DNA from: Micromonospora sp. M71_S20
Lineage (GTDB): Bacteria; Actinomycetota; Actinomycetes; Mycobacteriales; Micromonosporaceae
NCBI RefSeq assembly: GCF_003664255.1
Contig: NZ_RCCV01000001.1
Span: 4,216,001 to 4,280,000, forward strand
DNA: 64,000 nucleotides
Direction of reading: 5' to 3'
The translations under genes were made by a program, and so were the position numbers. Under the pieces are notes generated by a model. The model ran no database searches and was not told the origin of the DNA. It was given only the letters and a program-made list of their open reading frames with translations. The first letter of the stretch is position 1. Every line of letters begins with the position of its first letter. This document shows positions 58,608-62,866 of this stretch, piece after piece.

Positions 58608-59312
58608 GTGAAGCGGGACCACTCACCTGTGCTGCCTGGCGACGGCGCCACGGACTATGCGCGCTACATGCGGCTGGACGCGCTGCTCGACCTGCAACGG
58701 CGTCCGGAGGAGATGCTCCACCGCGACGAGCTGCTCTTCCAGGTGGTGCACCAGTCCACCGAGTTGTGGCTGAAACTCGCCGCCGCCGAGCTGGCCGAGG
58801 CGGTCACCCGGCTGCGCGCCGGCGAGCTGGCGGTGACCGAGTCGCTGCTGGCCCGGGCGACGCTCGGAATCCAGCTGGTCACCGACCAGCTGGAGATGTT
58901 CCGGCACCTGTCCCCGGCCGACTTCCAGGCCATGCAACCGGCGTTGGGCAAGGGATCCGGCGCGGAGTCGCCCGGCTGGCGGCAGGTCCAGGCCACGAGC
59001 CGACAGCTAGGCCGGGCGTTCGCCGAGCATCTGGAAGCCCAGGGAATCGACCCGGCCACACTGGGCCGGCCGGATCCGGCGGACCCCGTCCAGCGGCTCG
59101 CCGAGGCGCTCGTCGAGTGGGACGAGCGGGTGTCGCTGTGGCGGACGCGGCACTATCAGCTCGCCCTGCGTGTCGGGGGCCACGCCCCGGACGGTGCCGA
59201 GGCGACGATGCTCGCCAAGCTCGTCGGATACCGGTTCTTCCCCGAACTGTGGCGGGCCCGCCTGAAGCCCACCGATGAATCCGGTAACGAATCACAGGTC
59301 GGTCGTCCCTGA
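58608..59312 (+). CDS. Tryptophan 2,3-dioxygenase-family protein, short form (TDO-A)
   Basis: 234 residues; GTG 58608 is 10 nt after GAAGGGG. TDO features: DYARYMRLDALLDLQ (16-30), MLHRDELLFQVVHQSTELWLKL (the distal-pocket His48 of the HQxxELW motif), SLWRTRHYQLALRVGG with the expected proximal heme ligand His182, and the closing FFPELWRARL. The GTGGT substrate loop that should follow the proximal His is replaced by GGHAPDGAEAT. The protein is about 50 residues shorter than usual TDO. Heme binding is likely; tryptophan oxidation is uncertain. First gene of a four-gene operon, with a TDO paralogue next. Confidence 0.82.
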   Translation: MKRDHSPVLPGDGATDYARYMRLDALLDLQRRPEEMLHRDELLFQVVHQSTELWLKLAAAELAEAVTRLRAGELAVTESLLARATLGIQLVTDQLEMFRHLSPADFQAMQPALGKGSGAESPGWRQVQATSRQLGRAFAEHLEAQGIDPATLGRPDPADPVQRLAEALVEWDERVSLWRTRHYQLALRVGGHAPDGAEATMLAKLVGYRFFPELWRARLKPTDESGNESQVGRP

Positions 59313-59388
59313 CAATCCTCGTCCACCAGAAATTGTCAATCCCTCCCCACCTGTCTGCGTGGCGACCGAAATGTCGAGGTGCGGTTTC

Positions 59389-60663
59389 GTGCGTGAACTG
59401 ACGAGCTGGCTGTCCGGTGCCGGTGAGCCCGACAGTTTCCCATACTCCGCCGTGCTGGCGGAGTTTCACCGGGTCGGCAAACACTTCGTCGAGAAGGAGC
59501 TGCTGGCCCTGCTCGACCAGGCCCGTGCGCAGTCGACGGTGCCGGCGGCCGCGCGGGACGCCCACGCCCGGTTGCTGGGTGACTTCCTCGACACCGCGCT
59601 CGACAAGTGGGACGGCCGGTACGACTACCGCAGTTACCTGGCGCTGCGGCTGCTCCGGCTGCCCTGCGGGGACGACGTCGACGACGGGCCGGCCGCCGAC
59701 CCGCTCGGTGCCCGGCGGGAACGGGACCGGCTCCTCGTCCGCCTGGTCGCCGACGCGCTGGCCTTCGAGCTGACCGCCGCCTCCGGCACCACCGACCTGC
59801 TGCCCGAGCGGCGCCCGAGCCGGGACGTGGTGGCCAAGCGCTACCGGCTCGGCGTACGGGCCGCGTCCCCCGCCCTCGTCCGGATGGGCCTGGCCGGCAC
59901 GGTCCCCCACCGGGAGGCGGTGGCGACCCCGGACGAGCTGCGGGCCCTCGCCGCCGACCCGGATCCCAGCGGGGAGCTGGTGCTGCGGCTGAGCATGCTG
60001 CCGGTCCACGTGACACACGACGAGTACTTGTTCATCCGGGTGCTCCAGGCGTACGAGTGCCTCTTCGCCGGGATCGCCGACGAGCTGCGCGCCACCGTCG
60101 CCGCCCTGACCGCCGGCCAGGCGGGGCCGGCGGTCGAGCGGCTGGCGTACGCCCGCGAGCAGCTCACCAGCGCCGGACCGCTGTTCTCGCTGCTGGCCAC
60201 CATGCATCCGGAGGCGTTCCGGACGTTCCGGGAGTTCACCGAGGGGGCGAGCGCCATCCAGTCGCGCTCCTACAAGCTGGTGGAGTCGCTGTGCCGTACC
60301 CCGGAGGGGTCGCGGTTGGACTCGGCCGCCTACCACCAGGTGCCGGAGGTCCGCGACCGGGTGCACGCCGGGCGGCCGTCGGTCGACGACGCGTTCCGGG
60401 CCGCCGTACGCGACGGCCTGCTCGCCGCGCCTGGCGGCGAGCGGGTCGAGGAGGAGATGCGGTCGTTCGCCGCCGCGGTCGTCCAGTGGCGGCGTACGCA
60501 CCACCGGCTGGCGACCCGGATGCTCGGCCCCCGCCCCGGCACCGGCTACACGGAGGGCACGCCCTACCTGGCCGCCGTCCGGTCCATCCCGGTCTTCACC
60601 TCCGTCGCCGACGACTCCCGATCGGCGTCCCCGACCGGACCGACCGGAGGCAGCCCCGAGTGA
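59389..60663 (+). CDS. Tryptophan 2,3-dioxygenase-superfamily protein, long form (TDO-B)
   Basis: 424 residues from GTG 59389, which has GAGG 9 nt upstream; the same frame is open to ATG 59275, overlapping the previous gene. An N-terminal helical extension of about 200 residues has no recognised family. From about 205 the TDO pattern appears: THDEYLFIRVLQAYECLF, EGASAIQSRSYKLVE, QWRRTHHRLATRMLG with proximal His371 or His372, and the substrate loop RPGTGYTEGTPYL (GTGxT). The distal His of the HQAYE motif is Leu219 here. So it keeps the loop its neighbour TDO-A lacks and lacks the His its neighbour keeps. The stop overlaps the next gene by GTGA. Confidence 0.8.
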   Translation: MRELTSWLSGAGEPDSFPYSAVLAEFHRVGKHFVEKELLALLDQARAQSTVPAAARDAHARLLGDFLDTALDKWDGRYDYRSYLALRLLRLPCGDDVDDGPAADPLGARRERDRLLVRLVADALAFELTAASGTTDLLPERRPSRDVVAKRYRLGVRAASPALVRMGLAGTVPHREAVATPDELRALAADPDPSGELVLRLSMLPVHVTHDEYLFIRVLQAYECLFAGIADELRATVAALTAGQAGPAVERLAYAREQLTSAGPLFSLLATMHPEAFRTFREFTEGASAIQSRSYKLVESLCRTPEGSRLDSAAYHQVPEVRDRVHAGRPSVDDAFRAAVRDGLLAAPGGERVEEEMRSFAAAVVQWRRTHHRLATRMLGPRPGTGYTEGTPYLAAVRSIPVFTSVADDSRSASPTGPTGGSPE

Positions 60664-61838
60664 GCCCGCCCGAACCGCACCCCGACGCGCACGTGCCCGA
60701 GTGCCTCGACGCCACCGCGCACGCCGCCCTGCGCGCCGAGTTCCCCCTGCTCCAGAGCGCCGTCTATCTCAACAACAACTCCACCGGCGCGGTGCCCAGA
60801 GGGGCGGAACACGTCCTCACCGGCTACTGGGAGACGCTGCGGAGCTGGCGCGACGAGGTCTGGCAGGGCTGGCACGTCGGCCTCGACCGGTACGCCGACT
60901 CGGTCGCCGACCTCATCGGCGCGCCGGCGGGCAGCGTCGTCACGGACGCGAACCTCAGCACGCTGCTCGCCCGGGTGGCGTCCTGTTTCGACTACCGCCC
61001 GCCGCGCGACCGGATCGTCACCACCGACCTCGAGTACCCGACCGTGCCGTTCATCTGGAACGCGTTCCGCCGCTACGGCGCCCGACTCGACGTGGTCGGC
61101 TCGGGCGGCCCGTGGTTCGACGAGGACGCCCTCGAGGCGCGGATCGACGAGCGGACGCTGCTGGTGTGCGTCCCGCACGCCAGCTTCTCCTCCGGCGCCA
61201 CCGTCGACCTGCCCCGACTGGTGCGCCGGGCCCACGACGTCGGTGCCCTGGTGGTCGTCGACGCCTTCCAGAGCGTCGGGGTCATGCCGCTGGACGTGAC
61301 GGCGCTCGGCGTCGACGTCGTCCTCGGCGGCGCGCACAAGTGGCTCTGCGGCGTCGGCACCGCCTTTCTCTACGTCCGCCCGGGCCTGGTGCCGCAGCTG
61401 GAGCCGGCGGCGACCGGCTGGCAGGCCGGCGACCGGGCGTTCACGTTCCAACCGTCGACCGGCTGGGCCGACGGGGCCCGGCGATTCGCCGGCGGGACAC
61501 CGTTCCCCCTCACCTCGTTGGTCTCCCAGGTCGGCCTGGACCTGCTGGCCGGCGTCGGCATTCCCGCGATCCGCCGGCACTCGCTCGCCTGCACCCAACG
61601 GGTCCTGGACCGGGCCGCGGCGGCCGGCATCGACGTGGTCAGCCCGACCGAGCCGCACCGGCGCGGCGGCGTGGTGTGCCTCGATGTCGCCGACGGCGAG
61701 GCGGTCAAGCGGCGGCTGGCCGCGCGGGACATGGTCTGCAGCTGGCGTGGCTACCTGCGGGTCGGACCGCACGTCTACAACACCATCGAGGAGATCGACG
61801 CGTTCATGGACGCACTGGAAGAGGAGCTGGGCCGGTGA
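60660..61838 (+). CDS. Kynureninase-like PLP-dependent enzyme (class V fold)
   Basis: 392 residues, GTG 60660. PLP Lys227 in VLGGAHKWLCG, PLP-contacting Asp201 in VVVDAFQSVG, VYLNNNSTGAVP near the N-terminus and VPHASFSSGATVDL are as in kynureninase and related class V enzymes (also SufS- and isopenicillin-N-epimerase-like). Kynureninase splits kynurenine to anthranilate and alanine, which fits a pair of TDO-type proteins upstream; an epimerase or lyase on a related substrate is the alternative. No aryl-formamidase or kynurenine monooxygenase gene is beside it. Overlaps the TDO-B stop and the methyltransferase start (GTGA). Confidence 0.85.
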   Translation: MSPPEPHPDAHVPECLDATAHAALRAEFPLLQSAVYLNNNSTGAVPRGAEHVLTGYWETLRSWRDEVWQGWHVGLDRYADSVADLIGAPAGSVVTDANLSTLLARVASCFDYRPPRDRIVTTDLEYPTVPFIWNAFRRYGARLDVVGSGGPWFDEDALEARIDERTLLVCVPHASFSSGATVDLPRLVRRAHDVGALVVVDAFQSVGVMPLDVTALGVDVVLGGAHKWLCGVGTAFLYVRPGLVPQLEPAATGWQAGDRAFTFQPSTGWADGARRFAGGTPFPLTSLVSQVGLDLLAGVGIPAIRRHSLACTQRVLDRAAAAGIDVVSPTEPHRRGGVVCLDVADGEAVKRRLAARDMVCSWRGYLRVGPHVYNTIEEIDAFMDALEEELGR

Positions 61839-62866
61839 ACGTCACCCTGTCACCGCGGGCACTGATGAGCCTGCTCGCCAACGGGCCCAAGGCCATGGAC
61901 GTGCTGGAGACCGCGCTCGGCATGGGGCTGCTCGACGCCCTGGAGCCGGGCCCGGCCCGCCTCGGCGAGCTCGCCGAGCGGTTCGGCGTGCGGCCCCTGC
62001 GGCTCTACAAGTTCCTCGACTGCCTGGAGAGCCTCGGCTTCGTCGCGCGCAGCGAGCCCGGCGACGACATCGCCTCGGCCACGTACCGGACGGCACCCGG
62101 CCTGCGCGACGCCGTCGCGGCGGTGGTCGGCCCGGACGCCATCGAGCGGGACCGGGACCGCTATCCCTGGCGGCGGCTGCACGGCCGGCTGGGCGAGAGC
62201 CTGCGCGGCGAGGTCAGCATGGGCGACGACGACTTCGCCTGGCCGCCGAAGACCGACGAGCAGACCGCCGACTTCGAGCGCAGCATGGCCGTCGGTCTCG
62301 GCCCGGTGATCGAGGCGGTGCACCGCAACGCCGACCGGCTGTGGCCGGGGCGGACGCGACTGCTGGACGTCGGCGGCGGGGACGGCACGCTCGCCGCGCA
62401 CGTCCTCGACGACGCCCCGGGGCTGCGGGTCGACGTGTACAACCTGCCGGCGGTGGCGCCGCTGGTGGAGGCCACCCGGGCCCGCAGGGGGCACGCGGAC
62501 CGGCTGGGGTTCGTCGGCGGCGACTTCCTCGCCGAGCCGCTGCCGTCGGGCTACGACGCGCTGGCGTTCGTCCGGGTGCTGCACGACTGGCCGAACGAGG
62601 TCGCCCGCCGGCTGGTCGAGAAGGCGTACGCGGCCCTGGAGCCGGGCGGGATGCTGCTGATCTGCGAGGAGTTCCGCACCCCGGACCGGCTGGCGATGCA
62701 GTTCTTCTGGAGCTACTTCCTCATCGGGGTCGACAGCTGCGTGAGCCGGCTGCGGGAGGTCGACTTCTACACCGGCCTGCTCAAGGAGGTCGGCTTCGAA
62801 CGGGTGGCGGTGCTGCCCGGCGGCTGGGAGCTGGTCTGCGCGTACAAGCCGGGGACCGGGGGGTGA
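61835..62866 (+). CDS. SAM-dependent O/C-methyltransferase (plant-COMT-like family)
   Basis: 343 residues from GTG 61835. An N-terminal winged-helix dimerisation domain (LGMGLLDALEPGPARLGELAERFGVRPLRLYKFLDCLESLGFV in parts) is followed by a Rossmann domain with SAM motif LLDVGGGDGTLAAHVL (about 176-191), YNLPAVAPLVEA, and the LHDWPNEVA segment typical of the family's active site. Members methylate hydroxyls or ring carbons of natural-product intermediates; related enzymes C-methylate 3-hydroxykynurenine in actinomycin- and sibiromycin-type pathways. Last gene of the operon; a methylated kynurenine- or anthranilate-type product is a reasonable inference. Confidence 0.87.
   Translation: MNVTLSPRALMSLLANGPKAMDVLETALGMGLLDALEPGPARLGELAERFGVRPLRLYKFLDCLESLGFVARSEPGDDIASATYRTAPGLRDAVAAVVGPDAIERDRDRYPWRRLHGRLGESLRGEVSMGDDDFAWPPKTDEQTADFERSMAVGLGPVIEAVHRNADRLWPGRTRLLDVGGGDGTLAAHVLDDAPGLRVDVYNLPAVAPLVEATRARRGHADRLGFVGGDFLAEPLPSGYDALAFVRVLHDWPNEVARRLVEKAYAALEPGGMLLICEEFRTPDRLAMQFFWSYFLIGVDSCVSRLREVDFYTGLLKEVGFERVAVLPGGWELVCAYKPGTGG

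Follow-up and report, generated by a model that had tools for sequence, protein, structure and literature searches.

Two adjacent tryptophan dioxygenase-like genes in Micromonospora form a conserved pair with contrasting distal residues

Two neighboring genes of Micromonospora sp. M71_S20 raise the question of whether a pair of tryptophan dioxygenase (TDO)-like proteins, each missing a different part of the expected active site, makes up one enzyme or two. The genes, here called A and B, lie in a 64,000-nucleotide stretch of DNA (the window), and an initial annotation had read them as TDO paralogues lacking opposite halves of the active site, possibly forming a heteromeric or subfunctionalized heme enzyme. 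Both reading frames are open in the window sequence (Table 1). Purine-rich, Shine-Dalgarno-like stretches lie upstream of both GTG starts; that of B is preceded by GAGGTG and opens the protein with VRELT, a beginning common to many relatives. A and B are separated by 76 nt, and the joints that follow are tighter: the GTG start of a pyridoxal phosphate (PLP) enzyme overlaps the stop codon of B (GTGA), and a GTG start of a methyltransferase (MT) overlaps the stop codon of the PLP gene, so that the genes look like one operon. RedM is the best of the matches listed for the methyltransferase, SibL and hydroxyindole O-methyltransferase being others among them.

Table 1. Positions of the genes and of the active-site residues within the window.
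Feature	Position	Strand	Remark
A, 234-aa TDO/MarE-like protein, GTG start	58608..59312	+	
A distal His48	58749..58751	+	His in 145/145 A rows
A proximal His182, putative heme ligand	59151..59153	+	His in 145/145 A rows
A eroded substrate loop GGHAPDGAEAT	59175..59207	+	GTx[GHRN] absent in 58/145 A rows
B, 424-aa heme-oxygenase-like protein, TDO-like core and IDO/PrnB-like N-terminal cap	59389..60663	+	
B N-terminal cap region, residues 14-185	59428..59943	+	model aligns with PrnB/IDO, not TDO
B Leu219 at the distal-His position	60043..60045	+	Leu in 144/144 B rows
B Lys296 at the carboxylate-Arg position	60274..60276	+	Lys in 144/144 B rows
B proximal His371	60499..60501	+	His in 142/144 B rows
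B substrate loop GTGYTEGT	60538..60561	+	first Gly and next Thr each in 142/144 B rows
PLP enzyme, aminotransferase class V, kynureninase-like	60660..61838	+	1qz9 match E 2.4e-36
O-methyltransferase-family protein (Methyltransf_2)	61835..62866	+	start is the overlapping GTG, or ATG at 61865

Against the Pfam family PF03301 (gathering cut-off 34.9 bits), A scores 67.8 bits and B 56.7 bits (56.3 in the longer frame from 59275). Both fall far short of the TDO equivalog TIGR03036 (102.5 and 68.4 bits, cut-off 390.7), for which two Streptomyces A proteins score 133.8 and 104.1 bits and three other B proteins 60.5–70.5 bits. PF03301 was matched by all 22 B rows of a Pfam scan; no IDO or PrnB Pfam family appeared among the matches listed for these rows, and the 12 other families in the list were each hit by a single row at E 0.0083 or worse. 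Profile comparison relates A to B with a probability of 96.9% over 165 columns. A and B both have the PF03301 core or helical fold and the proximal His that define the TDO/IDO/PrnB superfamily, but the TDO trio of distal His, carboxylate-binding Arg, and GTGG loop is incomplete in each, since A in the window has no such loop and B has neither the His nor the Arg.

To compare these positions across both families, we aligned 145 A and 144 B rows comprising the window, the loci, and search matches of 215–290 aa (A) and 380–480 aa (B), the matches having been taken from the best 120 of 1959 for A and the best 120 of 825 for B before length filtering. Some rows hold the same gene twice (e.g., A of the window and P0123), and rows B_L106 (frameshifted) and B_L098 (wrong frame) were left out of all counts. 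The residues named in the initial annotation are all present in the window: A has its distal His within VVHQSTELW, its proximal His, and the altered loop, and B has Leu in place of the distal His (RVLQAYE), together with its proximal His and the GTGYTEGT loop. The distal position is invariant within each family and the proximal His nearly so (Table 1). To the earlier reading we add that the carboxylate-binding Arg (R117-equivalent) is replaced by Lys in every B row, while the same position in A varies (R in 119, K in 23, A in 2, and H in 1 of the 145 rows). The loop is close to constant in B, whereas 87 of the 145 A rows keep GTx[GHRN], by eye shifted one residue away from the proximal His relative to canonical TDO, and the remaining 58, the window included, do not. 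The equivalents of the cap tyrosines Y24 and Y27 are conserved in the alignment of both families (145 and 144 of 145 A rows; 144 of 144 B rows for each). Outside these sets, a divergent B-like gene (L097) has a distal Ile, an Arg, and a GTGGTSG loop, indicating that such genes vary, and several of the TDO relatives encountered carry Ser, Asn, or Leu at the distal position.

The absence of opposite halves therefore describes the window pair correctly but is not a constant of the family; the alignment, together with a tree of A, indicates that the constant contrast consists of the distal residue and the Lys of B, and that loop loss is local. In this tree (30 A rows and three other TDOs, some rows carrying a short tail where slices ran a few residues beyond stops), the loopless rows form a five-member clade (window A, L010, L022, L015, and L019) and, separately, the pair L087/L088. 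We also considered loop loss in A as a response to the possession of B, an idea left unsupported, as L087 and L088 are loopless without a B, and six other B-less A rows retain the loop. The proposal that the two proteins have diverged in role is supported, and A has lost strict conservation at the amino-acid-binding positions.

A literal extension of the initial annotation is that A and B contribute two half-sites to a single composite active site. On paper, A and B of the window do lose complementary parts, but the part of the published account available for MarE, a 2-oxindole-forming TDO-superfamily monooxygenase of the maremycin pathway, places the distal His and the substrate loop in one chain and names Tyr24, Val27, and Leu28 as the pocket residues supplied by the neighboring chain (PMC11904535). 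In this geometry, the losses in A and B would not repair each other, making a single composite pocket very unlikely by analogy. The loop retained in most A rows and the existence of A without B and of B without A, described below, also argue against shared half-sites, and we give this arrangement hardly any credence.

Predicted structures separate the two proteins further. Among the matches listed by Foldseek, the A half of the predicted model fits MarE and TDO best, whereas the model of B (AlphaFold2 [AF2] pTM 0.89 for B alone) aligns with PrnB and IDO over nearly its whole length (10–16% identity in the aligned part) and with TDO over the core only (22–23% identity), the TDO match beginning at about residue 186. 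Both match PF03301, but they are not twin TDOs. With TDO, A and B have in common the core and the proximal His, and A also the distal His; B differs by its distal Leu and its Lys, and the segment linking the lid to the proximal helix is shorter in both proteins. The likeness of B to IDO and PrnB, an N-terminal cap and core along the whole chain, lies in the model and is not matched by the sequence profile. IDO has a Ser at the distal position and needs no distal base, and the absence of the distal His from B fits its IDO-like architecture. A resembles MarE in its retained distal His, altered loop, simplified helices, and fold, as far as the accessible portion of the MarE account describes them (PMC11904535), but MarE keeps Arg118, the position at which A varies, and in sequence bacterial TDO (E 3.8e-24) is a closer match for A than MarE is (E 1e-5). 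The same portion of that account makes no mention of a B-like partner and reports that H55A MarE still forms product, even more than before (PMC11904535), so that a distal His can evidently be dispensable within the superfamily.

We then asked how regularly the two genes occur together. B is rare: among 396 genomes sampled from the whole phylum, three have it (E ≤ 1e-20), one of them the genome of the window. A survey of the family (300 genomes) found A (E ≤ 1e-40) in 55 and B (E ≤ 1e-20) in 59; both occurred in 52 of the 62 genomes with either gene, only A in 3, and only B in 7. These genomes yielded 54 A-B pairs, with A upstream in every one, which bears out the expectation of a conserved gene pair. 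Pairing demanded the same strand, and the gaps of -1 to 1232 nt were measured between profile matches rather than gene ends; many of the long gaps hold the PLP gene. Of 26 loci located by their B in named genomes, 25 have A nearby. Only Actinomadura chibensis (L034) departs from this; about 15 kb upstream of its lone B lies a TDO-like protein with a distal Asn and a canonical GTGGTGG loop (L045:8030-8818).

The pairing is nonetheless not obligate. At ten places, A has no B within 6 kb of it: two of these A genes are fragments (G610 and G654), and the other eight belong to A-PLP-MT cassettes (L081–L088, with only a 76-aa methyltransferase piece called in L082). Three of these eight genomes are without any B at E ≤ 1e-3, in four (G462, G479, G401, and G687) a seemingly intact B lies at another place and could act from there in trans, and in G693 B is broken across two frames. 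In G462 and G479, the B without A stands behind ABC-transporter and regulator genes, where G401 has A-B. B is clear in three of the genomes that have only B (G603, G556, and G694, the last without a gene call at that place), while in three more (G471, G589, and G613) the B-like matches are just weak and partial. In the seventh, G532, a divergent A-like gene lies downstream of B; otherwise, the A profile finds distant TDO-like matches in these genomes (best E 3.2e-12 to 1.1e-21). The initial annotation had named, as counting against its proposal, homologues of either gene commonly found alone as active TDOs with the same residues, and this outcome is seen in part: 3 of the 55 A-bearing genomes are without B, and three of the seven B-without-A cases are clear. 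Gene calls in the loci came from a G+C-periodicity caller that missed or shortened some genes (e.g., no B was called in L089).

Several further places were recorded in the course of the survey. The genome of M71_S20 itself has a second cassette, in the order A-PLP-B and 48–49% identical (L035:9087-12207, contig C4), a TDO of canonical appearance (L036), and a TDO-like protein with a distal Ser adjoining a kynureninase-like gene (L037). Three Micromonospora genomes have a lone B at one place with common neighbors (L089:8259-9335, L093:7609-8823, and L094:7596-8830), the last split over two frames.

Frequent pairing, together with A/B gene overlaps of 4 nt in L027 and L032 and 13 nt in L029, would also fit a stoichiometric complex. 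In such a hetero-oligomeric heme oxygenase, the pockets would be separate, each partner's N-terminal helices would close over the other's site, as they do in the TDO/MarE dimer, and both proteins would be needed for activity. The uniform order of the 54 pairs, the cap tyrosines kept in both families, and loci in which A-B stands without PLP or MT genes alongside (L101, L102, and L105) all speak for it. Nevertheless, A-PLP-MT loci persist in three genomes with no B anywhere, clear B genes lack A in three others, and, with the structural match of B to TDO beginning only at about residue 186, tyrosines 80 and 83 of B correspond to those of the TDO cap by sequence alignment only. PrnB, among the nearest whole-length folds of B, is a monomer in solution according to the part of its account available (PMC11791213).

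To model a complex, we took A and B of L021, which lie in one frame, and read the A stop as Trp, giving a 680-residue pseudo-fusion with its natural spacer; the AF2 input was alignment A6, alignment A3 having been dropped as its B rows fell on the A half. The prediction (pLDDT 81.7; pTM 0.68, compared to 0.89 for B alone) gave no clear A-B interface, in a read-through construct without PAE or a decoy control, and counts as evidence neither of an interface nor of its absence. An apparent natural fusion of 680 aa in L021 was rejected, the search match having run through the A stop codon, and a search for A inside longer proteins (7998 candidates scored) found no A-B fusion. It did find three proteins of metagenome origin with an ATP-grasp domain fused to A (P0244, P0245, and P0246), all ATP-grasp-A by order and one by Pfam. 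Separately, B is fused to a kynureninase-like PLP enzyme in Micromonospora polyrhachis (P0113). Mirror-tree comparison of 27 cassettes gave a raw A-B distance correlation of 0.93, and A-B given PLP was the top partial correlation (0.65, against 0.47 for A-PLP given B and 0.29 for B-PLP given A). Within the 19 Micromonospora cassettes, however, A-B (0.74) ranked below B-PLP (0.81) and PLP-MT (0.84), and the partial correlations were 0.64 for B-PLP against 0.47 for A-B; we therefore counted this mixed result for neither side. On balance, we consider an obligate hetero-oligomer somewhat unlikely.

A division of labor in which catalysis falls to B, with A reduced to a degenerate or regulatory subunit, or in which these roles are exchanged, would account for the variability of A at the Arg117 position and in the loop, where B is nearly invariant. 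Neither His, distal or proximal, varies in A, however, and A is the partner that survives without the other, in the A-PLP-MT cassettes; we judge such a division quite improbable.

The surrounding genes offer clues to the pathway, many of their names having been assigned by eye. A kynureninase-like PLP enzyme usually follows the pair, as does, in Micromonospora, usually a methyltransferase, and there the A-B-PLP-MT order recurs at varying chromosomal places. In four Streptomyces loci of one cluster type (L026, L028, L030, and L031), A-PLP-B follows ATP-grasp genes and is accompanied in all four by a trpE-like (anthranilate-synthase-like) gene and an FAD aromatic hydroxylase; trpG- and trpD-like genes (named by eye) are found in L026 and L028. 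By Pfam, L028 further encodes a class IV aminotransferase and a PF04199 cyclase, a member of the family to which bacterial kynurenine formamidase belongs. In three other Streptomyces loci (L027, L029, and L032), A-B lies between NRPS genes. The tryptophan supply genes, the formamidase-family cyclase, and the kynureninase-like enzyme point to a tryptophan substrate and a kynurenine-like product.

Taken together, we favor with moderate confidence a reading in which A and B are separate heme oxygenases serving the same tryptophan-derived pathway, each binding heme on its own proximal His in its own active site. A would be a short MarE/TDO-type enzyme with its distal His and Tyr/Tyr cap motif intact but its amino-acid-binding residues loosened; given a distal His and no strict carboxylate anchor, it may act on an indole that is altered or bound. 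B would join a TDO core to an IDO/PrnB-type N-terminal cap, hold the amino-acid end through the invariant Lys and the GTGxTEGT loop, and work without a distal His, needing no distal base, as in IDO. Acting in series or side by side, the two enzymes may oxidize tryptophan or a close derivative; whether they catalyze successive steps or act on separate substrates, the outcome would be a kynurenine-like product for the PLP enzyme to cleave and the methyltransferase to methylate. The persistence of A-PLP-MT without B is expected if B performs a separate step. The pathway is also supported by the PLP enzyme, whose nearest solved-structure relative is a kynureninase (1qz9) and whose KYNU_C domain scores above its cut-off. 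Counting against this reading, the PLP enzyme lies far below the cut-off of the kynureninase equivalog TIGR01814 (72.8 of 246.4 bits); B might lack heme, or A might be inactive. A bolder combination, in which A and B assemble or hand over an intermediate to carry out a tryptophan oxidation beyond the reach of any single known TDO, IDO, MarE, or PrnB and B is also a surviving architectural intermediate between TDO and IDO/PrnB, seems to us doubtful.

What is new here is the pairing of enzymes of known kind, one of which, B, stands between TDO and IDO/PrnB in its architecture; a literature search, which covered subscription journals and the comma-containing spelling "tryptophan 2,3-dioxygenase" only in part, found no paper on such an A-B pair. 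TDO, IDO, MarE, and PrnB make different products with one fold. A conserved pair in which the distal His is kept in one member and permanently replaced in the other allows a direct test of this residue's role, and the same cassette tests the roles of the carboxylate anchor and the cap domain, while the combination of core and cap in B bears on the relation between the two branches. The cassette also marks seemingly unexplored tryptophan-derived pathways in Micromonospora and Streptomyces, some within NRPS clusters.

Three neighborhoods of B-like genes deserve brief mention. At L090:7643-8788, a lone B has as neighbors an NRPS gene, an MbtH-like gene, and DpgA/HpgT-like genes (all named by eye), a setting that suggests use of this B in a peptide antibiotic pathway. 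At L095, L096, L101, L102, and L105, ABC-2-type permease genes precede B or A-B in the same orientation (named by eye), a hint that the product is exported; L095, L096, and L101 also have ABC ATPase and large-regulator genes (named by eye). Finally, an NRPS region that contains a divergent B/A-like pair also has, 1.6 kb upstream of this pair, a 64-aa open reading frame with four DWGWQ repeats, preceded by a purine-rich stretch (L092:5661-5855, + strand); the repeat was seen in no other sequence among 73 scanned, and the frame could encode a peptide signal or a RiPP-like precursor.
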